DNA from: Rhodobacter sp.
GTDB taxonomy: Bacteria; Pseudomonadota; Alphaproteobacteria; Rhodobacterales; Rhodobacteraceae
Direction: 5' to 3'
Assembly: GCA_027487575.1 (NCBI GenBank)
Contig: JAIYDJ010000075.1
Span: 88,178-152,177 of the forward strand
Length of the DNA: 64,000 nucleotides
In this document: positions 3,272 to 22,525 of the stretch, in pieces
How positions within the stretch are numbered: position 1 is the first letter of the stretch
How the letters are laid out: every line of letters begins with the position of its first letter
Position numbers and translations under genes: made by a program
The notes under the pieces: model-generated
The model's database searches: none
The model's input: only the letters and a program-made list of their open reading frames with translations
What the model was told of the DNA's origin: nothing

Positions 3272-3274
3272 AGG

Positions 3275-4237: not shown

Positions 4238-4929
4238 CAACGTTTTCCGGCATTCAGGTCGCGGGTCTGGGCAAAAGCTTCACGCTGCACAATCAGGGCG
4301 GAACGGTCATCCCGGTGATGGTGGATGGCGCGCTGTCGGTCGGTCCGGGCGAATGCGTGGGTCTGGTGGGCGCATCGGGGGCGGGCAAGTCGACGCTGAT
4401 GCGGATGATCTGGGGCAATTATCTGGCGCAGGCGGGGTCGATCCTGGTGGACGGCGTCGACGTGGCGCAGGCGGCCCCGCGCCAGATCATCGCGCTGCGG
4501 CGTCTGACCCTGGGCTATGTCAGCCAGTTCCTGCGTGTCGTGCCGCGTGTGCCGACGCTCGACGTGGTGGCCGAACCGCTGCGCGTGCTGGGGGTGCCCG
4601 AAGATCAGGCGCGGGCGCGTGCGGCAACCCTGTTGGCGCGGCTGAACATCCCCGAACGGCTGTGGTCGCTGTCACCCACCACCTTTTCGGGGGGCGAACA
4701 GCAGCGCGTCAACATCGCGCGCGGCTTTGCCCATGCCTATCCGGCGCTGTTGCTGGATGAACCGACCGCCAGCCTTGATGCGGCCAACCGCGAGGTCGTG
4801 CTGTCCCTGATCGAAGAGGCGAAGGCGCGCGGCGCGGCCATCCTTGGAATTTTCCACGACGAAGGCGCGCGGAACCGGGTGTGCGACCGGGTCGTGGATG
4901 TGACCGCCTTCACCCCGAAAGCCGCCTGA
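4234..4929 (+). CDS. phnL: Phosphonate C-P lyase system protein PhnL (ABC-type ATPase)
   Basis: Walker A GASGAGKST, signature FSGGEQQRVNIARG, Walker B LLLDEPTASLD; ATGA overlap with corA-like stop. Confidence 0.93.
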   Translation: MTTFSGIQVAGLGKSFTLHNQGGTVIPVMVDGALSVGPGECVGLVGASGAGKSTLMRMIWGNYLAQAGSILVDGVDVAQAAPRQIIALRRLTLGYVSQFLRVVPRVPTLDVVAEPLRVLGVPEDQARARAATLLARLNIPERLWSLSPTTFSGGEQQRVNIARGFAHAYPALLLDEPTASLDAANREVVLSLIEEAKARGAAILGIFHDEGARNRVCDRVVDVTAFTPKAA

Positions 4930-5460
4930 ATGCCGGGACTGTTCGCCATTGTCGGGCCATCCGGGGCGGGCAAGGATACGCTTCTGGCAGGGGCGCTGGC
5001 GGCGCGGCCCGATCTGGTGCTGGTGCGCCGGGTGATCACCCGGCCGACCGAGGCGGGCGGCGAGGAGTTCGACGGCGTCACCGAAGCCGAGTTTGCCCGG
5101 CGCATGGCGGCGGGGGCGTTTGCGTTGCACTGGCAGGCGCACGGTCTGTCCTACGGCATCCCGGCGGCGCAGATCGACCCGGGCCGGACGGTGTTGTTCA
5201 ACGGGTCGCGCGCGGCGCTGCCCGCGGCACAGGCGCGATTCCCGGCCCTCGTCGTGGTGCTGGTGACCGCGCCGGTGGCCGTGCTGGCCGCCCGTCTGGC
5301 CGCGCGCGGCCGCGAGACGGCGGCGGACATCGCCGCACGGCTGGAACGGGCGGGGTTCGACCTGCCCGCCGGTCTGGACGTGCGGCAGGTGATCAATGAC
5401 GGCACGCCGGCAGAAGGTGTCGCGCGGCTTCTGGCCGCGCTTCAGCCCAGCAGGGGATAG
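4930..5460 (+). CDS. phnN: Ribose 1,5-bisphosphate phosphokinase PhnN
   Basis: P-loop IVGPSGAGKDTL, guanylate-kinase-like, follows phnL directly. Confidence 0.92.
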   Translation: MPGLFAIVGPSGAGKDTLLAGALAARPDLVLVRRVITRPTEAGGEEFDGVTEAEFARRMAAGAFALHWQAHGLSYGIPAAQIDPGRTVLFNGSRAALPAAQARFPALVVVLVTAPVAVLAARLAARGRETAADIAARLERAGFDLPAGLDVRQVINDGTPAEGVARLLAALQPSRG

Positions 5461-6122
5461 CGGTGCAGGATCCGGAACATTCCGTCGTCGGCCTGCCCGA
5501 ACAACGCCAGGTCCGACAGAACGAAAGGCTGCGGCACCAGCGGTTGCAGATGCGGCCGCAGGGCCTGCAGTGTTGCGGCACTGTCGGCATCCGACAGCGC
5601 GCCCGTCAGCGTCAGGTGGAACTGGAACTGGTCCATCACGTAAGGATAGCCCCATTCGGCCAGCAGGTCGCGCTGGCGCGCCGTCAACTGGTCCGGCTTG
5701 CGGCGGGCGAACTCTTGCGGCGTGGGCGGGGCCCGGAAACCGTCCAGCGCCATGACGACCTCGGCGGCCAATGCGGCCAGGGCCGTGGTGTCGCCCTGCG
5801 GGATCAGGGCGACAAAGCCGTGCAGGTCCACCAGTTGCAACCCCGGCAACGTGACCGGAGCCAGCCGTGCAGCCAGCGCCTTGACCGCACCTTGCAACCC
5901 GGCCGCATCGGTGCCGACGGCCAGATGGAACGGCGGCTTGATCGTGCCGTGAAAGCCGTATTTGCGTGGCGTTGCCGTCAGATCGGAAACAGGCCGGGGC
6001 AACCCCGCGACCACAGGATGGGCCACCGTGGCCCCGGCTTCGGCATCCCACCCCAGCCAATGGGCAGTGAAATCGGCGAAAGCCCCCGCAGGGGGCGCAT
6101 AATAGATCGCGTAGCGTTGCAT
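5442..6122 (-). CDS. DUF1045 family protein (phosphonate metabolism-associated)
   Basis: MQRYAIYYAPPAGAFADFTAHWLGWDAE..., 2H-phosphoesterase-like HxT motifs (HGTIKPPF, HLTLTG); phn context. Confidence 0.85.
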   Translation of the reverse strand: MQRYAIYYAPPAGAFADFTAHWLGWDAEAGATVAHPVVAGLPRPVSDLTATPRKYGFHGTIKPPFHLAVGTDAAGLQGAVKALAARLAPVTLPGLQLVDLHGFVALIPQGDTTALAALAAEVVMALDGFRAPPTPQEFARRKPDQLTARQRDLLAEWGYPYVMDQFQFHLTLTGALSDADSAATLQALRPHLQPLVPQPFVLSDLALFGQADDGMFRILHRYPLLG

Positions 6123-6166
6123 GCCGTCTCCATCCGCGTCATTTCCGGGGCAGCTACAGGCACCGC

Positions 6167-6184
6167 GTCACAGGGCTGTGACAG
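6167..6184 (-). promoter_or_regulatory. Candidate PHO box: CTGTCAC-AGCC-CTGTGAC on minus strand
   Basis: Direct heptamers with 4-nt spacer (11-nt period) as in the PhoB consensus CTGTCAT-N4-CTGTCAT; located between divergent DUF1045 and phnM. Confidence 0.6.
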
Positions 6185-6241
6185 TCCCGGTGCACCACAT
6201 CCCATCGCCCGTGCGGCGTCAAGTTCAGGACCGACCCCCCG

Positions 6242-7396
6242 ATGACCGATAGCATGACCGACACCATCCTTGCCAACGCCACGCTCGTCCTGCCGACCGA
6301 GGTGATCCGGGGCAGCCTGCATCTGTCGGGAAGCCGGATCGCGGGCATCGACCATGGCACGGGCGTGCCGCCGGGGGCCATCGACTGCGGTGGCGATCTG
6401 GTGCTGCCCGGCCTGATCGAATTGCACACCGACAATCTGGAACGCCACATCCAGCCGCGCCCCAAGGTCGACTGGCCCCATGCCGCCGCCATCATCGCGC
6501 ATGACGCGGAACTTGCCAGCGTGGGCATCACCACGGTGTTCGATGCGCTGCGGGTCGGCTCGGTGCTGTCGAACACCACCACCGGCTACGGAGAGTACGC
6601 CCGTCAACTTGCCGACGAAATCCTGACGTTGCGCGCCGCCGATGCGCTGCGCATCAGCCATTTCCTGCACCTGCGCGCCGAGATCTGTTCCGAAACCCTG
6701 ATCGAGGAGATGGCCAAGTTCGGCCCCGCCGACCGGATCGGCATCGTCAGCCTGATGGACCATACCCCCGGAGAGCGGCAGTTCCGCGACATCAACCAGT
6801 TGCGCAAATACGTCACCGGCAAGCACGGTGCGACCGAGGCGGATTTCCAGGATCATATCGCGGGTCTGGTGGCGATCTCGGATAGGCTGGGCACGGTCCA
6901 TGAACAGACGGCGGTGGCCGAGGCGCGGCGCTATGGGGCGGTGCTGGCAAGCCACGACGACACGACCGAGGTGCATGTGCGGACCTCGGCCGGGTATGGC
7001 GCGCATTTCGCCGAGTTTCCTGTCACCTTCGAGGCGGCTCAGGCCTGCCGCACCCACGGGATCAAGGTGATGATGGGGGCGCCGAACCTGATCCGGGGCG
7101 GCTCCCATTCGGGCAATGTCGCGGCGCAGGCGCTCGCCGAGGCGGACCTTCTGGACATCGTGTCATCCGATTATGTGCCCTCGGCCCTGCTGTCGGCGTC
7201 GCTGATGCTGGGCGATCTGTGGGGCGACATGGCGCGCGGGGTGGCAACCGTGACGCAGGCCCCGGCGGCGGCGGCGGGGCTGACCGACCGGGGGCATCTG
7301 GACATCGGGGCGCGGGCGGATGTCATCCGCGTCACGCGGATCGGGGCGACGGGTGCGCTGCGGGGGACCTGGGTGCAGGGCCGTCGGGTCGCCTAG
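6242..7396 (+). CDS. phnM: Alpha-D-ribose 1-methylphosphonate 5-triphosphate diphosphatase PhnM
   Basis: Amidohydrolase: LPGLIELHTDNLERH, DHTPGERQ, SHDDTTEVH. Confidence 0.94.
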   Translation: MTDSMTDTILANATLVLPTEVIRGSLHLSGSRIAGIDHGTGVPPGAIDCGGDLVLPGLIELHTDNLERHIQPRPKVDWPHAAAIIAHDAELASVGITTVFDALRVGSVLSNTTTGYGEYARQLADEILTLRAADALRISHFLHLRAEICSETLIEEMAKFGPADRIGIVSLMDHTPGERQFRDINQLRKYVTGKHGATEADFQDHIAGLVAISDRLGTVHEQTAVAEARRYGAVLASHDDTTEVHVRTSAGYGAHFAEFPVTFEAAQACRTHGIKVMMGAPNLIRGGSHSGNVAAQALAEADLLDIVSSDYVPSALLSASLMLGDLWGDMARGVATVTQAPAAAAGLTDRGHLDIGARADVIRVTRIGATGALRGTWVQGRRVA

Positions 7397-8211: not shown

Positions 8212-8371
8212 GGTTCGGCTCCCATTCGGATCGGTTCACTTTATCCCAAAGGCGCGCCGCGTCGAGCCTTTGTGCCGACAGGTCGCATTTGCCCGATCTT
8301 CTGGCGAAACTGCGCCTGACTTCGCGCCGCGTCTGCGGCACCCTGCGGCCCAAGCCGACCCGGGAGCGCGC

Positions 8372-9475
8372 ATGAAGATCGTCAAGCTGGAAACCTTTGC
8401 CACGCCCTTCGTCGGCTTTGTGCGGGCGACATCGGAAACCGGGGCCACCGGATGGGGGCAGGTTTCGACCTACAACGCCGACATCACCTGCACCGTGTTC
8501 CACCGCCAGATTGCGCCGCATGCTCTGGGCACCGATGCGCTCGATTTTGCAGATACGCTGAACCTGATCCAGGAACGCGAACACAAGTTTCCGGGCAGCT
8601 ATCTGCGCCGGGCGATGACGGGCCTTGATACCGCGCTGTGGGACCTGCGCGGGCGGCTGGAGGGCAAACCGGTCGCCACGCTGCTGGGCGGATCGCCCGG
8701 TCCGGTGCGGGCCTATGCCAGTTCGATGAAGCGCGACATCACCCCCGAGGACGAGGCCGCCCGTTTTGTCCGGCTGCGCGACGAAAAGGGGTTCACCGCC
8801 TTCAAGTGGCGGGTGGGGGCGGAATGTGGCCGCGATCAGGACGAATGGCCCGGCCGGACCGAGGAAGTGGTGCCGGTGGTGGCCAAGGCGCTGGGCGACG
8901 GCATCGAAAAACTGGTGGATGGCAATTCGTGCTATTCACCCCGCCGGGCGGTTGAGGTGGGCTGGATGCTGGAAGACAACGGCATCGGCCATTTCGAGGA
9001 ACCCTGCCCCTACTGGGAATTCGACCAGACCCGCATCGTGCGCGAGACACTGAACCTTGATGTGGCCGGGGGCGAGCAGGACTGCGAATTCACCGCCTTC
9101 CGCAGCATGATCAACGAACATGTCGTCGACATCGTTCAGCCTGATGTGATGTATCTGGGCGGGATGCACCGCACCCTGCAGGTCTGCAAGATGGCTGCCG
9201 CCAAGGGGCTGCCCGTGACCCCCCACGCTGCCAATCTGGGGCTGGTGACCATGTGCACGATGCACCTGCTGCGCGCGATCCCCAACGCGGGCAAGTATCT
9301 GGAGTTTTCCATCGAGGGTCCGGACTATTACCCGTGGCAGGAGGGGCTGTTTCTGGGCGACCCCTATGCCATCACCGACGGCCATGCCACGGTGACCGAC
9401 GCGCCGGGCTGGGGCATCGACATCGACCCCGCATGGCTTGACCGTGCGGCCTATCAGGTATCGGAGACGGCATGA
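8372..9475 (+). CDS. Mandelate racemase/muconate lactonizing enzyme family protein (enolase superfamily)
   Basis: 367 aa; FKWRVGAE, LVDGNSCY, FEEPCPYWE, GGEQD, PHAANLG motifs; ATG at 8372. Confidence 0.9.
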   Translation: MKIVKLETFATPFVGFVRATSETGATGWGQVSTYNADITCTVFHRQIAPHALGTDALDFADTLNLIQEREHKFPGSYLRRAMTGLDTALWDLRGRLEGKPVATLLGGSPGPVRAYASSMKRDITPEDEAARFVRLRDEKGFTAFKWRVGAECGRDQDEWPGRTEEVVPVVAKALGDGIEKLVDGNSCYSPRRAVEVGWMLEDNGIGHFEEPCPYWEFDQTRIVRETLNLDVAGGEQDCEFTAFRSMINEHVVDIVQPDVMYLGGMHRTLQVCKMAAAKGLPVTPHAANLGLVTMCTMHLLRAIPNAGKYLEFSIEGPDYYPWQEGLFLGDPYAITDGHATVTDAPGWGIDIDPAWLDRAAYQVSETA

Positions 9476-10206
9476 CCAACATCCTCATCACCGGCGCAGG
9501 GTCCGGCATCGGCCGTGTCACGGCGCGGGCGTTTCTGGCGGCGGGCTGGCAGGTCGGGCTGATCGGACGGCGGCAAGCCGCGCTGGAGGAAACGGCCGGG
9601 GGCAATGCCGCGGCGCTGGTCCTGCCTTGCGACGTGACCGACCCCGCCGCCGTCGATGCTGCCTTCAAGGCGGCTTTTGACCGGTGGGGGCGGCTGGACG
9701 TGCTGTTCAACAACGCAGGCCAGTCTGCCCCGGCAGCACCCATCGACGAGATTGCTGTGGATACCTGGCTTCAGGTCAACGCGGTGAACATCACCGGCAT
9801 GTTCCTGTGCGCGCGCGCGGCCTTTGGCCAGATGCGCCGCCAGTCGCCGCAGGGGGGGCGCATCATCAACAACGGCTCGATCTCGGCTCATGTGCCGCGA
9901 CCGGGGTCGGTCCCCTATACCATGTCGAAACACGCGGTCACCGGTCTGACCCGGACGTTGGGACTGGATGGCCGGGCGTTCAACATCGCCTGCGGCCAGA
10001 TCGACATCGGCAACGCCCTGACAGAGATGGCCGCCCGGTTTCCCGCAGGCGTGCCGCAGGCCGACGGCGCGATCAGGACTGAACCGGTGATGGACGCAGC
10101 GCACGTGGCCGATGCCGTCATGCACATGGCGACGCTGCCGCTGTCGGTGAACATTCCCTTTGTCACGATCATGGCGCGCGACATGCCCTATATCGGGCGG
10201 GGATGA
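9472..10206 (+). CDS. SDR family NAD(P)-dependent oxidoreductase
   Basis: TGAGSGIGR, NNAGQ, YTMSKHA motifs; ATGA overlap with upstream gene. Confidence 0.93.
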   Translation: MTNILITGAGSGIGRVTARAFLAAGWQVGLIGRRQAALEETAGGNAAALVLPCDVTDPAAVDAAFKAAFDRWGRLDVLFNNAGQSAPAAPIDEIAVDTWLQVNAVNITGMFLCARAAFGQMRRQSPQGGRIINNGSISAHVPRPGSVPYTMSKHAVTGLTRTLGLDGRAFNIACGQIDIGNALTEMAARFPAGVPQADGAIRTEPVMDAAHVADAVMHMATLPLSVNIPFVTIMARDMPYIGRG

Positions 10207-10332
10207 TCAGTGACGGTTCGTGATGCGGATCGACGTGCGGCGCAGCACATCCACCAAGGCGCGCATCAGGATCAGCGCCGACGCCAGCCCGGCAAAGGCC
10301 AAGGGAATCGCAAGGTTCAGGGACTCTGTCAT
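10207..10332 (-). CDS. Small membrane protein (about 41 aa)
   Basis: Manual translation MTESLNLAIPLAFAGLASALILMRALVDVLRRTSIRITNRH*; one predicted TM segment and basic C-terminus; below ORF-track length cutoff. Confidence 0.5.
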   Translation of the reverse strand: MTESLNLAIPLAFAGLASALILMRALVDVLRRTSIRITNRH

Positions 10333-10470
10333 ATCGCTCCTCCGCAGATCGCCATGAATGTTTTATGACACCATGTCTTTACGACATAATAAGGGCATCT
10401 TGCCGCAAGAGGTTCCCGACATGCCTGAAAATTCACCCTTTCTTGAACGGCCTCCCACAAGGATTGATCC

Positions 10471-11394
10471 ATGACCCGACTTCATGCCTTTTCTGCCCCC
10501 GGCCGATTCTGGCGCGGCAATCTGCACACCCATTCCACCCGGTCGGACGGTGTGCTGTCGCCCGAGGAAGTCTGCCGTCGCTACATGGCCGAAGGCTATG
10601 ACTTCCTTGCGCTGACCGATCACTTCGTCGGGCTCTGGGGCTATCCGATCGTCGATACCGTGCCGATGCGCACCAACCGGTTCACGACGATCCTTGGCGC
10701 GGAACTGCATTCCGGCGCGATGGCGAACGGCGAGTTGTGGCACATTCTGGCGGTCGGCCTGCCCGCCGATTTCGCCCCGTCGAACACCCCGCATTTCGAT
10801 CCGGTCGCGGATCAGGAGACGGGGGCCGAAATCGCGGCCCGCGCCGTGGCCGCCGGGGCCTTCGTTGCCATCGCGCATCCGCAGTGGTCGGGGCTGACGC
10901 TGGCCGATGCGCGGTCGATCACGGCCGCCCACGCGGTCGAAGTCTACAACCACGGCTGCGCCGTGGGCTGCGACCGGCCAGACGGTTTTGCCATCGCAGA
11001 CCTTCTGCTGACGGAAGGCCGCGATCTGACGATGATCGCAACCGACGATGCCCATTTCTCGGAGCCTGACCATTTCGGCGGCTGGGTGATGGTCAAAGCC
11101 GAGGAAAACACGCCCGAGGCGCTGCTGGCCAGCCTGAAGGCGGGCACCTTCTATTCCTCGCAGGGGCCCGCGCTGCACGACGTGCGCATCGAAGGCAAGC
11201 ATGTGGTGGTCGAAAGTTCGGCGGTTGCGGCGGTCATCCTGCAGGGTGCCGGCACCGGGGCCAGGGCGGTGCACGGCCACTCGATGACCCGGACCGAAGT
11301 GCCGGTGGACCGCTTGAACACCAGTCCCTGGCTGCGTGTCACGGTGGTGGATGCGGCAGGTCGCAAAGCTTGGTCGAACCCGGTCCGCCGCTAG
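10471..11394 (+). CDS. CehA/McbA family PHP-type metallohydrolase
   Basis: FWRGNLHTHSTRSDG...ALTDH...GAELHS...IAHPQWSG: PHP metal-binding motifs. Confidence 0.87.
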   Translation: MTRLHAFSAPGRFWRGNLHTHSTRSDGVLSPEEVCRRYMAEGYDFLALTDHFVGLWGYPIVDTVPMRTNRFTTILGAELHSGAMANGELWHILAVGLPADFAPSNTPHFDPVADQETGAEIAARAVAAGAFVAIAHPQWSGLTLADARSITAAHAVEVYNHGCAVGCDRPDGFAIADLLLTEGRDLTMIATDDAHFSEPDHFGGWVMVKAEENTPEALLASLKAGTFYSSQGPALHDVRIEGKHVVVESSAVAAVILQGAGTGARAVHGHSMTRTEVPVDRLNTSPWLRVTVVDAAGRKAWSNPVRR

Positions 11395-11403: not shown

Positions 11404-12276
11404 TCAGTCCCTGTCGTCGCGGGGGCTGAGGGCCGAGAAATGCTTGTGCGCGATCCGGTACATCCGCCGATAGATCTTGGCCGTCCGGTTGCGAAGGTTC
11501 ATCGCCGCGTAGATCGGCTGCGTGACCTCGGCCACATCCGCGACATAGCCGAACTGGCCGGTTTCGACCATGCGTTCCGCCGTTTCCGCCAGAACGAAGC
11601 CCGCCCCGCCTATGGTCGACAGCAGCGATGCGATGATCCCGCTTTGCCCGGCGGCCAGCGGCACGCCCAGAAGTTCGGGCAGCATCTGGCGGTGAGCTTC
11701 TTCGAAAGCAGGCGAAAAGGCCCCGCGGATGTAGGTGGCAGGGTCGATTTCGGCCCGGCTGCGCGCGGTGTCCGCGATCAGGCGATAGGTCATCTCCCCC
11801 ACGCTGGCGAAATGCAGGTCGGGGTGGGGTTTCGGGGAATAGAGGATGGCGAAGTCCAGCGCACCGCGCGTCAGGTCGGCACACATCTGCGCCGAATAGT
11901 CGGGCTCGATGTACAGGGCCACCTGCGTCAGGTTGCGCTTTACCCCAGCAACCAGTTTGCCGATGTGGCCGGGGGCCAGGTCGTTCTGGATGCCCAGCCG
12001 CAGCGTGACCGCCGAACTGCCTGCAGGTTCGACCGCGCGCAGCGCCTCGTTCCAGTCGGCGCGCAGCATCCGCGCGTGCGGTTCGAACCGCAGCCCTTCG
12101 GTCGACAGTTCGGTGCCCGCGCGCGACCGCACGAACAGCCGCGCCCCCACCGCCGTCTCCAGCGCAACCACCCGGGCCGACACGGTGGACTGGGTGACCG
12201 ACAACCGTTCGGCCGTGCGGTTGAAACTGCGCGTCTCGACCAGGTCGAGAAAGGTTTCCAGAAGGTCGATCTGCAC
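11404..12276 (-). CDS. LysR family transcriptional regulator
   Basis: N-terminal HTH LLETFLDLVETRSFNRTAERLSVTQSTVSARVVALE. Confidence 0.95.
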   Translation of the reverse strand: MQIDLLETFLDLVETRSFNRTAERLSVTQSTVSARVVALETAVGARLFVRSRAGTELSTEGLRFEPHARMLRADWNEALRAVEPAGSSAVTLRLGIQNDLAPGHIGKLVAGVKRNLTQVALYIEPDYSAQMCADLTRGALDFAILYSPKPHPDLHFASVGEMTYRLIADTARSRAEIDPATYIRGAFSPAFEEAHRQMLPELLGVPLAAGQSGIIASLLSTIGGAGFVLAETAERMVETGQFGYVADVAEVTQPIYAAMNLRNRTAKIYRRMYRIAHKHFSALSPRDDRD

Positions 12277-12289: not shown

Positions 12290-12308
12290 TGATCGGTATT
12301 TCAGATCA
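12290..12308. promoter_or_regulatory. Candidate LysR operator TGATC-N9-GATCA
   Basis: Sequence TGATCGGTATTTCAGATCA; ATC-N9-GAT (T-N11-A) arrangement, 14 bp upstream of lysR and ~75 bp upstream of divergent gene. Confidence 0.6.
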
Positions 12309-12382
12309 ATAGACCGGGAACGTGACAATTGAAACACCCCCGCTGTCGCGGGATAGTCCGCTGGGACAGAACGGAGGGCAGC

Positions 12383-14812
12383 ATGGCCGATTTGCCGACA
12401 CAGGCGCGGGTGGTGATCATCGGGGGCGGGGCCGTCGGGGCTTCGGCGCTGTATCATCTGTGCAAGGCGGGCTGGACGGACTGCGTTCTGCTGGAAAAGA
12501 ACGAGCTGACCGCCGGGTCGACCTGGCATGCGGCGGGAAATGTGCCGACCTTCAGCGCGTCATGGTCGATCATGAACATGCAGCGCTATTCGGCGCAACT
12601 GTATCGCGGGCTGGGGGCGGCGGTCGACTATCCGATGAACTATCACGTCACCGGGTCGGTGCGGCTGGGCCACAGCAAGGAGCGCCTGCAGGAGTTTCGC
12701 CGGGTGGTCGGGATGGGCCGGTATCAGGGGATGGATCTTGATATCCTTGGTCCTGACGACATTCGGGGGCGCTATCCCTTTCTTGAAACCCACGGTCTGA
12801 CCGGCGCGCTGTATGATCCCTATGACGGCGACATCGACCCGGCGCAGTTGACGCAGGCGCTGGCCAAGGGCGCGCGGATGATGGGCGCGCATGTGGAACG
12901 GTTCTGCCCGGTCACGGCCGTGCGGCGCGATGGCGGCGAATGGGTCCTCACCACGCCCAAGGGCGAAATCCGTTGCGAAAAGGTTGTCAATGCCGCGGGA
13001 TACTATGCCCGCGAGGTCGGAAAGATGTTCGGGCGCGATCTGCCGATGATGGTGATGAGCCACCAGTACCTGCTGTTCGACACGATCCCCGAACTCGCCG
13101 CATGGAGCGCCGAGGTCGGCCACAAGCTGCCGCTGCTCCGCGATGTGGACAGCAGCTATTACCTGCGGCAGGAAAAGAACGGCTTCAACCTTGGCCCCTA
13201 CGAGGCGAATTGCCGGGCGCACTGGACGACGCCGGATGACCCCTTCCCGCAGGATTTCAGTTTTCAACTGTTCCCCGACGATCTGGAACGGCTGGAATGG
13301 CACATCGCCGATGCGATGGCCCGCGTGCCGCTGCTGGAAAAGGCCGCGCTGACCAAGGTCATCAACGGCCCGATCCCCTACACGCCCGATGGCAACCCCC
13401 TGATCGGCCCGATGCCGGGGGTGCGGAACGCGTACGAGGCTTGCGTCTTCACCTTCGGCATCTGTCAGGCGGGCGGCGCGGGCAAGGTGCTGGCCGAATG
13501 GGTGACCGAAGGGGCGACCGAATGGGATATGTGGTCCTGCGACCCGCGCCGGTTCACCGGCTACGAGGATGAGGCCTATTGCGTCGCCAAGGGGATGGAG
13601 GTCTACGGCCACGAATATGGCATGCATTTCCCGATGGCGCGCTGGCCTGCGGCGCCGGACAGGAAGCTGTCGCCGGTGCATGACCGCATCAAGGCGCTGG
13701 GTGGGGTCACGGCCCCCTACAACGGGTGGGAGCGGGCCGAATGGTTCGCCCGTCCCGGCGATGACACCTCGTGGGAAGCGGCCCAGACATGGGACCGCGC
13801 CGGCCCGTGGGAGGCGCGGATCGCGGCGGAATGCGCGGCTGTCCGCGACGGGGTGGGGGTTCTGGACCTGCCCGGGTTCACCCGGCTTCGGCTGCAGGGC
13901 CCCGGCGCGCGGGCGCATCTGGACCGGCTGACGGCAAGTAGGCTGCCGGAACCGGGCAAGATCGGTCTGGCCTATTTCGCCGATGCACGGGGCCGGATCG
14001 TGACGGAAATGACCGTCCTGCCCGTCAGCGACGAGGATATCGGCGTGATCACCGCTTCGGTCGCCCAACGTCACGACGCTGACCTGCTGCGGGCCGGACT
14101 GCCCGATGGCGTGGTGATCGAGGATTGGACCGACCGCATCCATTGTTTCATCGTCACCGGTCCCAAAGCCCGCGATCTGCTGGCTGGCGTCTGCGAGGCC
14201 GACCTGACCCTGCCGTGGCTGTCGGTGCAGTACTTTGCCAAGCTGGCGGGCCGCGACGTCGCCCTGATCCGTGTCAGCTTTGCGGGTGAGTTGGGCTGGG
14301 AGGTCCACTGCGACCGCGCCGATGCCCTGCCGATTTACGAGGCGCTGCTGGCCGGGGGCGCCGTGCCGTTCGGGATGCGGGCGCTGAACAGTCTGCGGAT
14401 CGAAAAGGGCTATCGCGCGTGGAAGGGCGATCTGTCGACCGACTATTCGCTGCTGGAAGGCGGGCTGGAGCGGTTCATCGACTGGACGAAGGACTTTCCG
14501 GGCAAGGCCCCGCTCGCCGCGCAGAAGCAGGCCGGAGTGGCGAAGCGGTTTGTCAGCCTGAAGGTCGCAACCGGCCCCTGCGATCCGCCTTACATGGCCA
14601 ACCTGTGGTCGGACGGGCAGATCGTGGGCGAAGTCACCTCGGCCGCCTTCGGGCACCGGGTGGGCCATGTGGTGGCGCTGGCGATGCTGCGCGCCGATCT
14701 GGCCGCGCCGGGGATGACGCTGCAAGTCGAGGCGTTCGGCGAGCGGCTGGGGGCCGAAGTGATGGGCTACGGGGCGCAATGGGACCCGAAGAACGAGCGC
14801 ATCCGCGCGTGA
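12383..14812 (+). CDS. FAD-dependent oxidoreductase with C-terminal GcvT (aminomethyltransferase) domain, dimethylglycine dehydrogenase-like
   Basis: RVVIIGGGAVGASALYHL FAD motif, STWHAAG, C-terminal GcvT fold (GELGWEVH, LRIEKGYRAWKGDL). Confidence 0.9.
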   Translation: MADLPTQARVVIIGGGAVGASALYHLCKAGWTDCVLLEKNELTAGSTWHAAGNVPTFSASWSIMNMQRYSAQLYRGLGAAVDYPMNYHVTGSVRLGHSKERLQEFRRVVGMGRYQGMDLDILGPDDIRGRYPFLETHGLTGALYDPYDGDIDPAQLTQALAKGARMMGAHVERFCPVTAVRRDGGEWVLTTPKGEIRCEKVVNAAGYYAREVGKMFGRDLPMMVMSHQYLLFDTIPELAAWSAEVGHKLPLLRDVDSSYYLRQEKNGFNLGPYEANCRAHWTTPDDPFPQDFSFQLFPDDLERLEWHIADAMARVPLLEKAALTKVINGPIPYTPDGNPLIGPMPGVRNAYEACVFTFGICQAGGAGKVLAEWVTEGATEWDMWSCDPRRFTGYEDEAYCVAKGMEVYGHEYGMHFPMARWPAAPDRKLSPVHDRIKALGGVTAPYNGWERAEWFARPGDDTSWEAAQTWDRAGPWEARIAAECAAVRDGVGVLDLPGFTRLRLQGPGARAHLDRLTASRLPEPGKIGLAYFADARGRIVTEMTVLPVSDEDIGVITASVAQRHDADLLRAGLPDGVVIEDWTDRIHCFIVTGPKARDLLAGVCEADLTLPWLSVQYFAKLAGRDVALIRVSFAGELGWEVHCDRADALPIYEALLAGGAVPFGMRALNSLRIEKGYRAWKGDLSTDYSLLEGGLERFIDWTKDFPGKAPLAAQKQAGVAKRFVSLKVATGPCDPPYMANLWSDGQIVGEVTSAAFGHRVGHVVALAMLRADLAAPGMTLQVEAFGERLGAEVMGYGAQWDPKNERIRA

Positions 14813-14823
14813 CGGGCGGCGGA

Positions 14824-14869
14824 CCGGGGGCCAGCCCCCGGACCCCCGGGATATTTGGAGACAGAAAAT
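14824..14869 (+). repeat. Dispersed intergenic repeat copy A (hairpin CCGGGGG-ccag-CCCCCGG + GGGATATTTGGAGACAGAAAATG)
   Basis: Perfect 7-bp stem followed by GGATATT...CAGAAAATG box shared with other copies. Confidence 0.7.
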
Positions 14870-14879
14870 GGGCAGGGCG

Positions 14880-17315
14880 ATGGTCGAAGTTCCAAAACAC
14901 GCGCGGGCGGTGATCATCGGGGGCGGCGTGTCGGGCTGTTCGGTGGCCTATCATCTGGCCAAGGCCGGGTGGACAGACATTGTGTTGCTGGAGCGGCAGA
15001 AGCTGACATCGGGGACGACCTGGCATGCGGCGGGGCTGATCGGGCAGTTGCGCGGGTCGGCCAACATGACGCGGCTGGCGAAGTATTCCGCCGATCTTTA
15101 CGTGAAGCTGGAGGCAGAGACCGGGGTGGCGACGGGGATGCGGCAGGTCGGGTCGATCTCGGTCGCCTTGACCGCCGAGCGTCACGAGGAATTGCTGCGG
15201 CAGGCGACGGTGGCGCGGATCTTCGGGGTCGATGTTGCCGAGATATCGCCGACCGAGGCCAAGGCGATGTATCCGCATCTGGAGATCGGGGATGTGGTGG
15301 GGGCGGTGCATCTGCCGCTGGACGGACAGTGCGACCCGGCCAACATCGCGATGGCGCTGGCACGGGGTGCGCGGATGCGGGGGGCGCAGATCTTCGAGGG
15401 GGTGAAGGTCGTTGCGGTGACCAAGAGCCAAGGCCGCGTCACCGGAGTCGAGTACGAGGTGGCGGGCGAGCGGGGGGCGATTGCCTGCGATGTCGTGGTG
15501 AACTGCGGCGGGATGTGGGGGCGTGACCTGGCCGGGGCGTCGGGCGTGACGCTGCCGCTGCACGCCTGCGAGCATTTCTATCTGATCACCGAGCCGATCG
15601 ACGGTCTGGGCCATCTGCCGGTGCTGCGGGTGCCGGATGAGTGCGCCTATTACAAGAGTGATGCGGGCAAGATGATGGTCGGGGCGTTCGAGCCGAAAGC
15701 CAAGCCGTGGGGCATGGAGGGCATCCGCGAGGATTTCTGCTTTGACACGCTGCCCGAGGATTGGGACCATTTCCAGCCGATCCTGGAACACGCCATGAAC
15801 CGTCTGCCGCTGTTCCAGACGGCGGGCATTCATACCTTCTTCAACGGGCCGGAATCCTTTACCCCCGACGACCGCTACTATCTGGGCGAGGCGCCGGAAC
15901 TGGGCGGCTATTGGATTGCGGCGGGATACAACTCGGTCGGGATCGCCGGGTCGGGCGGGGCGGGGATGGCGCTGGCGCACTGGATGACCGAAGGCGAGGC
16001 GCCTTTCGATCTGTGGGAGGTCGACATCCGCCGGGCGCAACCGTTCCAGCGGAACCGGCGCTATCTGAAAGAGCGGGTGAGCGAGACGCTGGGCCTGCTT
16101 TATGCTGACCACTTCCCCTATCGGCAGATGGCGACCTCGCGCGGGGTGCGGCGCAGCCCGCTGCATGAACATCTGAAGGCGCTGGGCGCGGTGTTCGGCG
16201 AAGTGGCGGGGTGGGAGCGGGCGAACTGGTACGCCAGACCGGGGCAGGCGGCGGAGTACCGCTATTCGTGGAAGCGGCAGAACTGGTTCGACAATGCCCG
16301 TGCCGAGCACATGGCGGTGCGCACCGGCTGCGGGCTGTTCGACATGACCAGTTTCGGCAAGATCCGGGTCGAGGGGCGCGATGCCTGCGCATTCCTCAAC
16401 CGGGTCTGCGCGAACGAGATCGACGTGGCTGAGGGCCGGATCGTCTACACGCAGATGTTGAACGCGCGGGGCGGGATCGAGAGCGATCTGACCGTGACGC
16501 GGCTGAGCGAGACGGCCTTCCTGCTGGTGGTGCCGGGGGCAACGCTGCAGCGCGATCTGGCGTGGCTCCGGCGGCATCTGGGCGATGCGTTTGCCGTCAT
16601 CACCGATGTCACGGCGGGCGAGGCGGTGGTGTGCGTGATGGGGCCGCAGGCGCGGGACGTGCTGGCGCGGGTGTCGCCTGCCGATCTGAGCAACCCGGGC
16701 CATCCGTTTGGCACGGCAAGGGAAATCGAGATTGGCATGGGTTTGGCCCGGGCGCACCGGGTGACCTATGTGGGCGAGTTGGGGTGGGAGCTTTACGTCT
16801 CGACCGATCAGGCCGCGCATGTGTTCGAGGCGCTGATGGAGGCGGGCGGGGTGACGCTGGCAGGGCTGCATACGCTGGATTCGTGCCGGATCGAAAAGGC
16901 CTACCGGCATTTCGGCCATGACATCACCGACGAGGATCACGTGCTGGAGGCGGGGCTAGGCTTTGCGGTGCGGACGCAGAAGCCCGACTTCATCGGGCGC
17001 GATGCGGTGTTGCGGAAGCGCGAGGCGGGGCTGTCGCGGCGGTTGGTGCAATTCCGGTTGACCGATCCGGAACCGCTGCTGTTCCACAACGAAGGGATCG
17101 TGCGGGACGGGCGGATCGTCGGGCCGGTGACGTCCGGGGCTTACGGCCATTTCCTCGGCGGGGCGGTGGGCCTCGGCTATGTGCCCTGCGCGGGCGAGAG
17201 CGAGGCGGATGTGTTGGGGTCGACGTATCAGATCGAGGTGGCGGGGGTGCGGCACGCGGCGGTGGCATCGCTGGTGCCTTTGTACGATCCGAAATCGGAG
17301 CGGGTGCGGATGTGA
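14880..17315 (+). CDS. FAD-dependent oxidoreductase with C-terminal GcvT domain (second, paralogous copy; ORF-track start 14868 also possible)
   Basis: AVIIGGGVSGCSVAYHL, TTWHAAGL, GELGWELYVS, SCRIEKAYRHFGHD; GGGCAGG precedes the 14880 ATG. Confidence 0.9.
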   Translation: MVEVPKHARAVIIGGGVSGCSVAYHLAKAGWTDIVLLERQKLTSGTTWHAAGLIGQLRGSANMTRLAKYSADLYVKLEAETGVATGMRQVGSISVALTAERHEELLRQATVARIFGVDVAEISPTEAKAMYPHLEIGDVVGAVHLPLDGQCDPANIAMALARGARMRGAQIFEGVKVVAVTKSQGRVTGVEYEVAGERGAIACDVVVNCGGMWGRDLAGASGVTLPLHACEHFYLITEPIDGLGHLPVLRVPDECAYYKSDAGKMMVGAFEPKAKPWGMEGIREDFCFDTLPEDWDHFQPILEHAMNRLPLFQTAGIHTFFNGPESFTPDDRYYLGEAPELGGYWIAAGYNSVGIAGSGGAGMALAHWMTEGEAPFDLWEVDIRRAQPFQRNRRYLKERVSETLGLLYADHFPYRQMATSRGVRRSPLHEHLKALGAVFGEVAGWERANWYARPGQAAEYRYSWKRQNWFDNARAEHMAVRTGCGLFDMTSFGKIRVEGRDACAFLNRVCANEIDVAEGRIVYTQMLNARGGIESDLTVTRLSETAFLLVVPGATLQRDLAWLRRHLGDAFAVITDVTAGEAVVCVMGPQARDVLARVSPADLSNPGHPFGTAREIEIGMGLARAHRVTYVGELGWELYVSTDQAAHVFEALMEAGGVTLAGLHTLDSCRIEKAYRHFGHDITDEDHVLEAGLGFAVRTQKPDFIGRDAVLRKREAGLSRRLVQFRLTDPEPLLFHNEGIVRDGRIVGPVTSGAYGHFLGGAVGLGYVPCAGESEADVLGSTYQIEVAGVRHAAVASLVPLYDPKSERVRM

Positions 17316-17327
17316 GTTCGGCAGAGG

Positions 17328-17388
17328 CGGGGGGTTTCACACCCCGCGCACCCCCCGTGGGATATTCATTGACAGAAAATGAGGGCAG
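17328..17388 (+). repeat. Dispersed intergenic repeat copy B (GCGGGG...CCCCGC hairpin + GTGGGATATTCATTGACAGAAAATGA)
   Basis: Shares TTTCACACCCC..CACCCCCCGTGGGATATT..CAGAAAATGA with copies D and E. Confidence 0.75.
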
Positions 17389-17389
17389 G

Positions 17390-18958
17390 ATGAGCGATAT
17401 CGTGGAGATCGGAGAGGCCTGCGAGCCCACGCGGGCGCGGGCGGGGCGGTCGGGCGGGCGGTCGGCGCGGGTGGCGCTGCGGGCGGCTCCGCTGGCCGAT
17501 GACGTGCGTCCGGTACGGGGCGGGATGCCAGGGGGGCTTTACAAGCCGCTGAGCGAGGAGGGGGTGCAACAGATCCACCAGTCGGCGCTGGAGGCGCTGG
17601 AGGTGATCGGGCTGTCGCAGGCGCCGCCCTCCGGCGTGGCGATCATGACGGCGGCGGGGGCCGTTCTGGGCGACGACGGGCGGCTTCGGTTTCCGCGCGC
17701 GCTGGTCGAGGACATGCTGGCGGTGGCGGCGCGCAACATCACGCTGCATGCCCGCGATCCGAAGCAGGACCTGCATCTGTCCGGCACAAACGTGCATTAC
17801 GGCACGGCGGGAGCGGCGGTGCATATCGTCGATCCGGTCACGCTGGAGTACCGCGAGAGCACGGCGCAGGACCTGTACGATGCGGCGCGGCTGGTCGACA
17901 ATCTGGACAACATCCATTTCTACCAGCGCACGATGGTCTGCCGCGACGTGATGGACAACCGCGAGATGGACCTGAACACGCTTTATGGCTGTCTGGCGGG
18001 AACGACGAAGCATGTCGGCACCAGCTTCAGCGACCCTGCCCATGTCGCCGACTGTTTCGACATGCTCTACACCGTGGCAGGCGGCGAGGAGAAATGGCTG
18101 GAACGCCCGTTTGTCAGCAATTCCAACTGCTTCGTTGTGCCGCCGATGAAGTTCGCGGAAGAAAGCTGCATCACGATGGAGGATTGCATCCGGCGCGGCA
18201 TGCCGATGCTGTTGCTGAGCGCGGGGCAGGCCGGGGCGACAGCGCCTGCGCCGATCGCGCTGACGATCGTTCAGGCGGTGGCGGAGTGTCTCGCGGGGGT
18301 CGTCTATGCCAATGCCATCAAACCCGGCGCGCCTTGCATCTTCGGCACCTGGCCGTTCGTGTCGGACCTGCGGACGGGTGCGATGTCGGGGGGCAGCGCG
18401 GAACAGGCGCTGCTGACCGCCGGTTGCGCACAGATGCACCGGTTCTACGATCTGCCCGGCGGGGCGGCGTCGGGGATATCCGACAGCAAGCTGCCCGACA
18501 TGCAGGCCGGGTGGGAACAGGGGATCACCAATTCGCTGGCGGGTCTTGCCGGTCTGAACATGTGCTACGAGGCGGTGGGGATGCATGCCAGCCTGCTGGG
18601 CTTCTGTCTGGAAAGTCTTGTCCTCGGCGACGATCTTCTGGGGCAGGCGATGCGGTTGGTGCGCGGCATCGACGTGACCCCGGATTCCACCAGCATCGAG
18701 GCGATGAAAGAGGTGTGTCTGGGCGGGCCGGGGCACTATCTGGGCAGCGACCAGACGCTGAAGCTGATGCAGACCGAGTATATCTATCCCGCGGTCGGCA
18801 ACCGGATGAGCCCGAAGGAATGGAACGAGGCGGGCAAGCCGCTGCTGCTTGACGCGGCGATTGCGCGCAAGAATAGTATCCTGGCAAAGGCCAGATGCGT
18901 GATCGACCCTGACATCGATGCTGCGATCCGGGCCAAGTACAACATCTACTTCCAGTGA
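17390..18958 (+). CDS. Trimethylamine methyltransferase (MttB) family protein, non-pyrrolysine type
   Basis: MttB-like: YKPLSEEGVQQIHQSALEALEVIGL, NVHYGTAGAAVHIVD, KLPDMQAGWEQGITNSLAGLAG; full-length ORF without in-frame TAG. Confidence 0.87.
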   Translation: MSDIVEIGEACEPTRARAGRSGGRSARVALRAAPLADDVRPVRGGMPGGLYKPLSEEGVQQIHQSALEALEVIGLSQAPPSGVAIMTAAGAVLGDDGRLRFPRALVEDMLAVAARNITLHARDPKQDLHLSGTNVHYGTAGAAVHIVDPVTLEYRESTAQDLYDAARLVDNLDNIHFYQRTMVCRDVMDNREMDLNTLYGCLAGTTKHVGTSFSDPAHVADCFDMLYTVAGGEEKWLERPFVSNSNCFVVPPMKFAEESCITMEDCIRRGMPMLLLSAGQAGATAPAPIALTIVQAVAECLAGVVYANAIKPGAPCIFGTWPFVSDLRTGAMSGGSAEQALLTAGCAQMHRFYDLPGGAASGISDSKLPDMQAGWEQGITNSLAGLAGLNMCYEAVGMHASLLGFCLESLVLGDDLLGQAMRLVRGIDVTPDSTSIEAMKEVCLGGPGHYLGSDQTLKLMQTEYIYPAVGNRMSPKEWNEAGKPLLLDAAIARKNSILAKARCVIDPDIDAAIRAKYNIYFQ

Positions 18959-18965
18959 GGGCGAC

Positions 18966-20396
18966 ATGATCTCTGCCAACATGACAAAGTTCTACATCAA
19001 CGGTGCCTGGGTCGCGCCGTTGTCGGACGCCCGTCTCGGGGTGGAAAACCCCGCGACCGAGGAAATCGTGGCCCAGGTCGCGCTGGGCAATGACGCCGAC
19101 GCGGATGCCGCGATCATGGCCGCCCGCGCCGCCTTCGATGGCTGGACCGTCACCCCGGTTGCCGAGCGCATCGCGCTGGTCCGCCGTATCCTCGAGGTTT
19201 ACAACGCCCGCTATGAGGATTTCGCGCAAGCCATGTCGACCGAGATGGGCGCTCCGATCGAATGGGCGCGCGGGGCGCAGGCCTGGGCGGGCCAGGTGCA
19301 TATCGAGGCCACGATCAAGGCGGCGGAAGAGATGCATTGGGAATACATGCGCGGCACCACGCGCATCGTCTACGAAGGCATCGGGGTCTGCGCGCTGATC
19401 ACGCCGTGGAACTGGCCGATGAACCAGATCGCCTGCAAGGTGGCACCCGCCCTGATCGCAGGCTGCACGATGGTGCTGAAACCATCCGAAATCGCCCCGC
19501 TGTCGGGCGTGCTGTTCGCCGAAGTGTGCCACGAGGCAGGCGTGCCGCCCGGCGTGTTCAATCTGGTCAACGGCGACGGGCCGGGGGTCGGCACCCGCAT
19601 CACCTCGCACCCCGAGGTCGATATGGTGTCCTTCACAGGATCGACCCGTGCGGGGATCCTGATCGCCACGGCGGCGGCCAAGACGGTCAAGCGTGTGGCG
19701 CAGGAAATGGGCGGCAAATCGGCCAACATCATCCTGCCGTCGGCCGATCTGCAGGCGGCGGTCACCGCGGGTGTCAACGCGATCATGTCGAACACCGGGC
19801 AGTCCTGCGACGCGCCGACCCGGATGTTCGTCCACCGCAGCCAGCAGGCCGAAGCGCTGGCCATCGCCAGGGAAACCGCCGAGGCCATCGTCCCCGGCGA
19901 CCCGCTGGCCGACGGCACCACGATGGGGCCGCTGATTTCGAAGGTGCAGTTCGACAAGGTGCAGCGGCTGATCCAGAGCGGCATCGACGAAGGCGCAACG
20001 CTGGTGACCGGGGGTGTTGGCCGCCCGGCCGGGCTGAACCGGGGATGGTTCTGCAAGCCGACGATCTTTGGCGATGTGCAGAACGAAATGACCATCTCGA
20101 AGGAAGAAATCTTCGGCCCGGTGCTGTCGGTTCTGCCCTATGACTCGGTCGATGATGCCGTGCGGATGGCCAATGACTCCGTCTACGGTCTTGCCGCCTA
20201 CATCGCCGGCCCGCTGGAAGAGGCGCGTCCTGTCGCCCATCGCCTGCGGGCGGGGACCGTCAACCTGAACTATCCCGACTGGGATACCTCTGCGCCGTTC
20301 GGCGGTTACAAGCAGTCTGGCAACGGGCGCGAGTATGCCGACTGGGGCATCCACGACTTCTGCGAGGTCAAGGGCATCGTCGGCTACGGGGCGTGA
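18966..20396 (+). CDS. Aldehyde dehydrogenase family protein
   Basis: VTPWNWP-like LITPWNWPMNQ, FTGSTRAG, EMGGKSANI, catalytic Cys NTGQSCDAPTR. Confidence 0.95.
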   Translation: MISANMTKFYINGAWVAPLSDARLGVENPATEEIVAQVALGNDADADAAIMAARAAFDGWTVTPVAERIALVRRILEVYNARYEDFAQAMSTEMGAPIEWARGAQAWAGQVHIEATIKAAEEMHWEYMRGTTRIVYEGIGVCALITPWNWPMNQIACKVAPALIAGCTMVLKPSEIAPLSGVLFAEVCHEAGVPPGVFNLVNGDGPGVGTRITSHPEVDMVSFTGSTRAGILIATAAAKTVKRVAQEMGGKSANIILPSADLQAAVTAGVNAIMSNTGQSCDAPTRMFVHRSQQAEALAIARETAEAIVPGDPLADGTTMGPLISKVQFDKVQRLIQSGIDEGATLVTGGVGRPAGLNRGWFCKPTIFGDVQNEMTISKEEIFGPVLSVLPYDSVDDAVRMANDSVYGLAAYIAGPLEEARPVAHRLRAGTVNLNYPDWDTSAPFGGYKQSGNGREYADWGIHDFCEVKGIVGYGA

Positions 20397-20458
20397 CCCG
20401 GCACCTGGCCTGAACCATCCGGGGCGGCATCGGGCCGCCCCCACCCAGCGGGGACATC

Positions 20459-21358
20459 ATGCATTACGGATACATCGGCCTCGGCAATCTGGGGGCCGCC
20501 TGCGCGGGCTGTCTGGTGAAGGACGGTTTTCGGGTCACGGTCTATGACCTGAACCCCGCCCTTGCCGCCCCTTTGGTGGCGCAGGGGGCGATCCTGGCCG
20601 ACAGTGCCGAGACGCTGGCGGCGTCTGTCGATCACGTGATCACCTGCCTGCCGTCCCCTGCGGTGTCCGAACGGGTGCTGCGCAACATCCTGCCGCACAC
20701 GGCGCAGGGCGCGTCCTGGGTCGAGATGTCGACGCTGGGCCGCGACGAGGTTCTGAAACTGGCCGCCGTCGCCGCCGGGGCAGGGGTGCGGATGATGGAA
20801 CTGCCGGTGACCGGCGGGGTGCATCTGGCGCATCAGGGCAGGATTACCATGCTGGCTGGCGGCGAGCGTGACCTGTTCGACCTGCACCACAAGGCGATGC
20901 AGGCAATGGGCGACCGGATCTTTCACATGGGTCCGCTGGGATCGGCGTCGATCATCAAGGTCATCACCAACATGCTGGCCTTCATCCACCTGAAAGCCAC
21001 CTCCGAGGCGCTGATGCTGGCCAGGCGGGGCGGGCTTGACCTTGCGCAGTCCTGGCATGCGATTGCGGCGTCGTCGGGCAACTCCTTCGTGCATGAAACC
21101 GAAGGTGCACTGATCCTGAACGGCTCTTATGACGTCGCATTCAACATCGATCTGGCGCTGAAGGACCTTGGCTTTGCTCTGGGCTTCGGGCGCGAGTTCG
21201 GTGTGCCGCTGGATCTGGCCTCGATGACAAACCAGACCTATGTCGCCGCCAAGGCGGCCTATGGCGGCGAGGCGCAATCGCCGATGATCGCCAAGCTGCT
21301 GGAAGACCTGCTGGGCACCGACTTGCGGGCCGAAGGCTTTCCGGCACGGCTGGAATAG
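20459..21358 (+). CDS. NAD(P)-dependent oxidoreductase, 3-hydroxyisobutyrate dehydrogenase-like
   Basis: GYIGLGNLGAACAGCLVKDGF, ELPVTGGVHLA, KVITNML. Confidence 0.9.
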   Translation: MHYGYIGLGNLGAACAGCLVKDGFRVTVYDLNPALAAPLVAQGAILADSAETLAASVDHVITCLPSPAVSERVLRNILPHTAQGASWVEMSTLGRDEVLKLAAVAAGAGVRMMELPVTGGVHLAHQGRITMLAGGERDLFDLHHKAMQAMGDRIFHMGPLGSASIIKVITNMLAFIHLKATSEALMLARRGGLDLAQSWHAIAASSGNSFVHETEGALILNGSYDVAFNIDLALKDLGFALGFGREFGVPLDLASMTNQTYVAAKAAYGGEAQSPMIAKLLEDLLGTDLRAEGFPARLE

Positions 21359-21418
21359 CGACTTGTCAACGCCTTGTCGTCAATGTTTCATGTGGCGCAT
21401 GAAGATGGGAGCCACAGT

Positions 21419-22525
21419 ATGGACGATGTGACCAAGGCGCGGGTGGCGTCGATGCTGCACCACCGCAGCAAAACGCTGCAACCGGGCGATCCGCTGGTGG
21501 CGGGCATCATCTCGTCCGCCACCTATCACACGCCCGATGTCGCGAACCTGAGCCATGTCTACGGCCGCTCCGGCATGCCGACGTGGGAGGCGCTGGAGGC
21601 CCAGCTTGGCATTCTGGAAGACGCCGAATGCGTGACCTTCCCCAGTGGAATGGGCGCGATTTCGGCGGCGCTGTTCGCGGGCCTTGGCGCGGGCAAGCGG
21701 GTGTTGATCCCGTCAGACGGCTACTATGTGACGCGCCTTCTGTCGGCGCAGGTTCTGGCGACCTACGGGGTCGAGGTGGTCGAGGTGGCAACCCGCGACA
21801 TCGCCACCGCCGACATGACCGGGGCGGCGGTGGTCTACATCGAGACGCCGTCCAATCCGGGGCTTGAGGTGTGCGACATCGCCGCCGTCAGCTCCCGTGC
21901 CCATGCGGCGGGGGCGATCGTGATGGTGGACAACACCACGATGACGCCCCTGTTGCAGCGCCCGCTGGACCTTGGCGCGGATGTTGTGGTCGCGGCGGAT
22001 ACCAAGGCCCCGGCAGGCCATTCGGATGTGCTGTTCGGCCATGTCGCGTCACGCGATCCGGCGTTCATCCAGCGCGTCTGCGACTGGCGGCGGCTGTCGG
22101 GCGGGGTGCCCGGCGCGTTCGAGGCGTGGCTGGTGCATCGCGGGATCGAGACGCTGGAGGTGCGGCTGGAACGGATGTGCGCCTCGGCCGGTATGGTGGC
22201 GCGGCGGCTGGCGGAACATCCGGCGGTGACCAATGTGCGCTATCCCGGTCTCAGTCAGGACCCGTCGCATGCGGTGGCAAAACGGCAGATGTCGGGGTTC
22301 GGGTTTCTGATCGGGTTCGAACTGGCCGATGCGGCGCGGGCCGAACGGTTTCTGACCGAATGCCCGCTGATCGCGCAGGCGACCAGTTTTGGCAGCACGC
22401 ATTCGTCGGGGGAACGCCGGGTGCGCTGGGGCGATGCGGTGCCGCAAGGCTTCATCCGGCTGTCGGTCGGGCTGGAGCCGGTCGAGGCGCTGTGGGCGGC
22501 GATGGCGGCGGCGCTGGAGCAATAG
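21419..22525 (+). CDS. PLP-dependent trans-sulfuration family enzyme (cystathionine gamma-lyase/synthase-like)
   Basis: FPSGMGAISAAL, YIETPSNPGLEVCDI, VDNTTMTPLLQRPLDLGADVVVAADTKAPAGHSD (PLP Lys region). Confidence 0.9.
   Translation: MDDVTKARVASMLHHRSKTLQPGDPLVAGIISSATYHTPDVANLSHVYGRSGMPTWEALEAQLGILEDAECVTFPSGMGAISAALFAGLGAGKRVLIPSDGYYVTRLLSAQVLATYGVEVVEVATRDIATADMTGAAVVYIETPSNPGLEVCDIAAVSSRAHAAGAIVMVDNTTMTPLLQRPLDLGADVVVAADTKAPAGHSDVLFGHVASRDPAFIQRVCDWRRLSGGVPGAFEAWLVHRGIETLEVRLERMCASAGMVARRLAEHPAVTNVRYPGLSQDPSHAVAKRQMSGFGFLIGFELADAARAERFLTECPLIAQATSFGSTHSSGERRVRWGDAVPQGFIRLSVGLEPVEALWAAMAAALEQ

Follow-up and report, generated by a model that had tools for sequence, protein, structure and literature searches.

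A conserved LysR-linked operon of Rhodobacteraceae as a candidate N-demethylation route for a trimethylammonium compound

What compound would a bacterium take apart with an MttB-superfamily methyltransferase, two FAD-GcvT oxidoreductases and three further catabolic enzymes encoded side by side? The question is raised by a stretch of Rhodobacter sp. DNA of 64,000 nucleotides (the 'window'; assembly GCA_027487575.1, contig JAIYDJ010000075.1, positions 88,178 to 152,177), in which six co-directional genes stand behind a divergent gene for a LysR-type regulator. We find that LysR, the two FAD-GcvT enzymes (FG1 and FG2), the methyltransferase (MttB) and a HIBADH-family dehydrogenase (HAD), accompanied or not by an aldehyde dehydrogenase (ALDH) and a cystathionine gamma-lyase-type pyridoxal-phosphate enzyme (CGL), form a conserved unit of aerobic water and soil bacteria. 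With confidence that is about even, we propose that this LysR-controlled catabolic operon fully N-demethylates a trimethylammonium compound in three steps, working through a shared MtgC/MtgD hub.

A conserved unit behind a divergent LysR gene

The features of the locus are as follows; counts refer to 58 fully flanked loci in named genomes.

11404-12276, minus strand: LysR-type regulator, divergent (PF00126/PF03466, HTH_1/LysR_substrate; 56 of 58 loci)
12290-12308, no strand: LysR box, TGAT-N11-ATCA (TGATCGGTATTTCAGATCA), in the LysR-FG1 gap
12329-12357, plus strand: probable sigma-70 operon promoter, TTGAAA at 12329 and GATAGT at 12352, as read from the sequence
12383-14812, plus strand: FG1, FAD-GcvT oxidoreductase (Pfam DAO, FAO_M, GCV_T, GCV_T_C; 51 of 58 loci)
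14880-17315 (start approximate), plus strand: FG2, second FAD-GcvT oxidoreductase (Pfam DAO, FAO_M, GCV_T, GCV_T_C; 51 of 58 loci)
17390-18958, plus strand: non-pyrrolysine MttB-superfamily methyltransferase (PF06253, E = 5e-110)
18966-20396, plus strand: ALDH, aldehyde dehydrogenase (PF00171, Aldedh; 38 of 58 loci)
20459-21358, plus strand: HAD, HIBADH-family dehydrogenase (PF03446/PF14833, NAD_binding_2/11; 55 of 58 loci)
21383-22525, plus strand: CGL, cystathionine gamma-lyase-type enzyme, last operon gene (Cys_Met_Meta_PP; NF005758; 24 of 58 loci)

The initial annotation had described this layout of a divergent LysR gene and six co-directional genes, and Pfam backs every one of its family calls. 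Gaps among the six plus-strand genes measure 7 to ~75 bases; FG2 could start at 14868 (in frame) or 14880, and CGL at 21383 or 21419.

Had these genes not been conserved together in relatives, the view of them as one pathway put forward in that annotation would have lost its footing; the neighbourhoods of the relatives show instead that the unit is conserved. A scan of named genomes returned 557 relatives of the window MttB, and neighbourhoods were examined for the best 80, the 58 with full flanks among them. The best 80 belong to Cypionkella, Tabrizicola, Pseudorhodobacter, Gemmobacter, Defluviimonas, Rhodobacter sp. SW2, Yoonia, Loktanella and others, all of them Rhodobacteraceae or labelled at a higher rank. 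Where MttB identity is at least ~73%, the order LysR-FG1-FG2-MttB is mostly retained, often with HAD, which is the most constant enzymatic partner of MttB and persists even in Yoonia and Loktanella, where just LysR-MttB-HAD stands at the corresponding place. Some relatives' units carry inserted genes for a phosphoenolpyruvate (PEP)-mutase-like protein, a zinc-type oxidoreductase, a homocysteine methyltransferase or a GMC oxidoreductase. LysR-FG1-FG2-MttB also occurs in Shinella and S. meliloti Ak57, where each of the three enzymes is 70-81% identical to its window counterpart. In the Ak57 locus (L209:17394-19722), FG2 is broken into a pair of overlapping frames that carry no annotation; the Shinella copy is intact.

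The LysR-FG1 gap is conserved as well. TGAT-N11-ATCA has a single match in the whole window, located precisely in this gap, and recurs exactly in 57 of 74 orthologous gaps, with ATCG-N7-CGAT in 71 of the 74; the minimal LysR-MttB-HAD units have near variants of the box 5' of MttB. The probable promoter that would drive the operon has counterparts too, in that ATTGAAAG is found in 60 of the 74 gaps, with GATA-T-like hexamers ~17 bases downstream in the sequences inspected. With a gene order that recurs across dozens of genera and a LysR box that is unique in 64 kb, the arrangement is far beyond chance.

Homologues of the window MttB occur in 170 of 298 Rhodobacteraceae genera, and MttB and FG1 occur together even where their genes are unlinked: 161 genera have both, 9 MttB alone, 19 FG1 alone and 109 neither (odds ratio 103, Fisher p = 1.6e-49, from raw genus counts uncorrected for shared ancestry). 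In many relatives MttB is solitary near cysS, and FG1 and FG2 belong to a separate operon that follows an XRE-cupin gene and in which the two are often separated by a homocysteine methyltransferase gene. HAD orthologues (at least 60% identity) are present in 37 genera, 32 of which have window-type MttB. This coupling bears on the idea that MttB is a bystander, in which case the substrate of FG1, FG2 and the dehydrogenases would be an ordinary secondary or tertiary amine. The activity of MttB is indeed a prediction, and the cluster lacks a corrinoid partner, as such a scenario would expect; nevertheless, the strong association with FG1 across the family, together with the single LysR box and single gene order shared across genera, makes a bystander role very unlikely.

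MttB clade, predicted pocket and corrinoid hub

The window MttB is a full-length PF06253/COG5598 protein (368 bits against a cut-off of 25; residues 20-515). Its frame contains no stop and hence no amber codon, Ile aligns with Pyl334 of Methanosarcina MttB, and it scores 330 of the 525 bits required by TIGR02369, the model for pyrrolysine-type trimethylamine methyltransferases. The earlier call of a non-pyrrolysine MttB thus stands.

Orthologues in Ruegeria pomeroyi help to place the enzyme. The MttB orthologue (66% identical) lies at 2267973-2269481 and is the single further PF06253 gene between SPO2108 and MtgC/SPO2160, two genes that were placed by orthology and spacing; we therefore equate it with SPO2134 (MtgB2). 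The FG1 orthologue (65%) at 3603680-3606124 and the FG2 orthologue (70%) both lie at ~3.60 Mb, where two intervening genes are seen, a position in keeping with SPO3400 and SPO3396; like SPO2134, these two locus numbers are assigned from position.

In a phylogenetic tree, the window MttB, SPO2134 and the S. meliloti copy form a clade of their own (support 100/99), separate from a second clade (100/99) that contains Desulfitobacterium hafniense MtgB (DhMtgB), S. meliloti 4YYC, SPO2108 and five other MttB paralogues of the source genome; pyrrolysine-type MttB and a Leisingera sequence are long branches in this tree. The window enzyme, which is 26-28% identical to MtgB1 and DhMtgB, thus falls outside the MtgB clade. 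Docking predicted that Y94, N199, R309 and H345 of DhMtgB contact glycine betaine (PMC6855144). At these positions, which we paired by residue identity because the printed chain numbering is one off, 4YYC, SPO2108 and a paralogue on contig C5 of the source genome have Tyr, Asn, Arg and His, whereas the window MttB and SPO2134 have Gly, Phe, Gly and Glu, so that all four predicted contacts are lost. Tentatively, and at somewhat less than even confidence, we suggest that the MtgB2-type clade represents a separate substrate class.

No corrinoid protein is encoded within the cluster. The single PF02607 corrinoid protein of the source genome (3.9 Mb, 122 contigs, 89% complete) is MtgC on contig C59, where its neighbours are MtgE-like and DUF1638-like; on contig C97, RamA, of which the C-terminal domain was found, adjoins an MtgD-like protein identified from its N-terminal sequence. 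MtgC and DUF1638 match their R. pomeroyi counterparts at 76% and 70%. The genome therefore encodes all of MtgC, MtgD, RamA and DUF1638. This organization resembles the MtgBCD(E)/split methionine synthase system of R. pomeroyi DSS-3, also an aerobic member of the Rhodobacteraceae, in which a PF06253 enzyme works with an MtgC/MtgD and RamA/DUF1638 hub encoded apart from the MttB genes. By contrast with that system, the window MttB belongs to the other clade and is operonic with FG1, FG2, HAD, ALDH and CGL under a LysR regulator. The MtgB, MtpB, MtcB and MtyB enzymes of anaerobes are likewise non-pyrrolysine PF06253 proteins that use a corrinoid protein; compared with MtgB, the one member of this group included here, the window MttB differs in clade and in lacking the predicted Tyr/Asn/Arg/His contacts.

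FG1 and FG2 have the full DAO-FAO_M-GCV_T-GCV_T_C order of rat and human dimethylglycine dehydrogenase (DMGDH) and Arthrobacter dimethylglycine oxidase (DMGO). They score 538 and 439 bits against DMGDH chains, and three other FAD-GcvT paralogues of the source genome score 521-572 bits against dimethylglycine dehydrogenases, about equal or above; the likeness of FG1 and FG2 to these enzymes therefore does not fix their substrate. One further FAD-GcvT gene of the source genome, 47% identical to FG2, follows a choline-kinase-like gene and lies near a glutamine-synthetase-like gene (contig C76, L104:7657-10987); it may perhaps belong to the methylamine (N-methylglutamate) route.

Of the accessory enzymes, ALDH falls below all NCBIfam equivalog cut-offs shown, the best being betaine-aldehyde dehydrogenase (BADH) at 402 of 669 bits. 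The best match of HAD in the Protein Data Bank (PDB) is 2-hydroxymethylglutarate dehydrogenase (3cky). CGL passes the NF005758 (PRK07582) equivalog cut-off (515 bits against 440), from which its reaction is predicted. Choline dehydrogenase plus BADH as a source of glycine betaine was considered and set aside, as both the GMC enzyme of the relatives and the window ALDH score below the respective cut-offs. The homocysteine methyltransferase of the relatives was similarly rejected as betaine-homocysteine methyltransferase (PRK07534), scoring 69 of 338 bits; it is nearer to PRK09485, yet under that cut-off too.

Proposed route and substrate

One MttB and two FAD-GcvT enzymes match the three steps from NMe3 to NH2. 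In the route that we propose, whose individual reactions and order we infer from family knowledge, MttB would take the first methyl group off the quaternary nitrogen and load it onto the cobalamin carried by the shared MtgC, MtgD would pass it on to tetrahydrofolate, and RamA and DUF1638 would maintain the cobalamin in its reduced state. The two methyl groups that remain would next be oxidised by FG1 and FG2 and handed to tetrahydrofolate, which leaves a primary amine. HAD, plus ALDH and CGL where present, could process the carbon skeleton. CGL-type enzymes require a free alpha-amino group, so CGL would act last.

The initial annotation had inferred demethylation of a quaternary or sulfur-containing compound. 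Demethylation is well supported, and gene anatomy, neighbourhoods, co-occurrence and the MtgC/MtgD/RamA hub argue for a quaternary N-methyl compound. A sulfur substrate finds no support: CGL is present at fewer than half of the loci, and the bond that it would break is conjectural. The same annotation's view of the pathway as undescribed is only partly right, as the core orthologues in R. pomeroyi have already been named MtgB2, dimethylglycine dehydrogenase (SPO3400) and sarcosine dehydrogenase (SPO3396) (PMC12478193, PMC4744692).

Those names describe exactly what the leading single rival substrate, glycine betaine, would require. The cluster would then be a second glycine betaine operon, in which MttB (MtgB2) converts betaine to dimethylglycine, FG1 acts as dimethylglycine dehydrogenase and FG2 as sarcosine dehydrogenase, and the remaining enzymes serve C1, serine or sulfur amino acid metabolism. 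The number of steps agrees, and the homocysteine methyltransferase between FG1 and FG2 in many relatives would fit. The names of SPO3400 and SPO3396 appear, however, to derive from sequence, and reaching glycine requires no HAD, ALDH or CGL.

Gene distribution also bears on glycine betaine. Canonical MtgB1 is found in 271 of the 298 genera, and SoxA, a subunit of heterotetrameric sarcosine oxidase, in 285, irrespective of MttB. Of the MtgB1-positive genomes, 163 have window-type MttB, and 156 of these also have FG1; the other 108 lack this MttB, and just 18 of them have FG1. We doubt that glycine betaine is the main substrate because MttB belongs to a separate clade and has lost the four predicted contacts, because MtgB1 and SoxA are near-universal, and because FG1 tracks window-type MttB among genomes that already have MtgB1. 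A second glycine betaine operon is a possible explanation to which we give well under even weight, and the evidence weakly favours another trimethylammonium compound as the main substrate.

Several points weigh against our proposal. First, PMC12478193 (Mausz et al. 2025) reports that MtgB2 (SPO2134) rises when glycine betaine, choline or carnitine is supplied; these three compounds converge on glycine betaine, and the induction therefore favours it as the substrate. The genetics of that study concern mtgC and mtgD mutants. Second, our literature search found no characterised or assayed enzyme for the clade of the window MttB, and the betaine contacts, coming from docking, are predicted positions. 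Third, FG1 and FG2 are not distinct from other FAD-GcvT paralogues in their scores against solved dimethylglycine dehydrogenases, and shared ancestry could enter the genus counts that couple FG1 to MttB. Finally, the connection of ALDH, CGL and HAD to the demethylation steps is conjectural, and genomes can hold redundant routes, so that the evidence against glycine betaine is no proof.

A more specific alternative assigns a task to every accessory enzyme. If the substrate were a hydroxy or hydroxymethyl carboxylate betaine (carnitine-type, homoserine betaine or a betaine-lipid head group), HAD could oxidise the alcohol and ALDH the aldehyde, and after release of the amine CGL could eliminate a substituent at the beta or gamma position, in line with its need for a free alpha-amino group. 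The constancy of HAD, including in the LysR-MttB-HAD units, and its best PDB match would suit such a compound, as would a Leisingera plasmid on which a CGL of the same equivalog lies close to an MttB of 41% identity. These likenesses are, however, at superfamily level, ALDH and CGL are frequently absent, the cluster has no linked transporter, lipase or hydrolase, and nothing ties it to any one of these compounds; we regard this alternative as unlikely. Homarine was set aside as a candidate, as no paper was found that ties it to these genes.

More broadly, these results link an MttB paralogue of 170 Rhodobacteraceae genera with two flavoenzymes that already bear names and, for a portion of the family, with a single LysR box, and the glycine-betaine labels on MtgB2, SPO3400 and SPO3396 are open to doubt. 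R. pomeroyi is a model for marine turnover of methylated nitrogen compounds, and PMC12478193 describes as many as seven MttB paralogues in a genome, most of them without known substrates.

Related loci and surroundings

A locus on the R. pomeroyi megaplasmid (SPO_RS21405 to SPO_RS21380; L210:13953-24249) shares with the window a LysR gene, an MttB of the same wide clade (45%) and two FAD-GcvT enzymes, in the order LysR-MttB-class III aminotransferase-FAD-GcvT-FAD-GcvT-thiamine pyrophosphate (TPP) enzyme. The aminotransferase and the Xsc-like TPP enzyme stand there instead of ALDH, HAD and CGL, which suggests a different substrate, and the locus appears to be a sister route for the demethylation of some other compound. 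Taurine betaine was left as a lead for it, the TPP enzyme being nearest to Xsc but reaching 401 of 620 bits and the aminotransferase being HemL-like.

On the Leisingera caerulea plasmid (L212:6553-18402), the 41%-identical MttB and the CGL mentioned above are accompanied by an old yellow enzyme (OYE)-type flavoprotein, a GbcA-like Rieske oxygenase, an enolase-superfamily protein, a GMC oxidoreductase and a TPP enzyme. A further MttB of the source genome (contig C40, L041:5620-13560) lies beside a probable OYE-type demethylase, a dipeptidase-like protein and a GbcA-like Rieske oxygenase; judged from the N-terminal sequences of these neighbours, this is possibly a proline-betaine locus.

Genes for hutF and a hutC-like protein stand beside LysR in 18 of the 58 loci, ~7-9 kb upstream of MttB (L108, L112, L163 and others). 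Histidine betaine, which these neighbours might bring to mind, was not pursued as a substrate, the genes being confined to those loci, beyond LysR and lineage-bound.

In the window itself, the cluster ends at 22525 and is followed by an opposite-strand SDR gene and then purF, cvpA and radA. On its 5' side lie an enolase-superfamily protein, an SDR and a PHP protein, encoded consecutively at 8369-11394, and a phosphonate operon, the C-P lyase (phn) genes at 357-7396, which include phnI and an ABC ATPase and enclose a CorA-type transporter gene (3275-4237). SDR and PHP genes also border the demethylation unit in several relatives (for example, loci L113, L114, L127 and L143).

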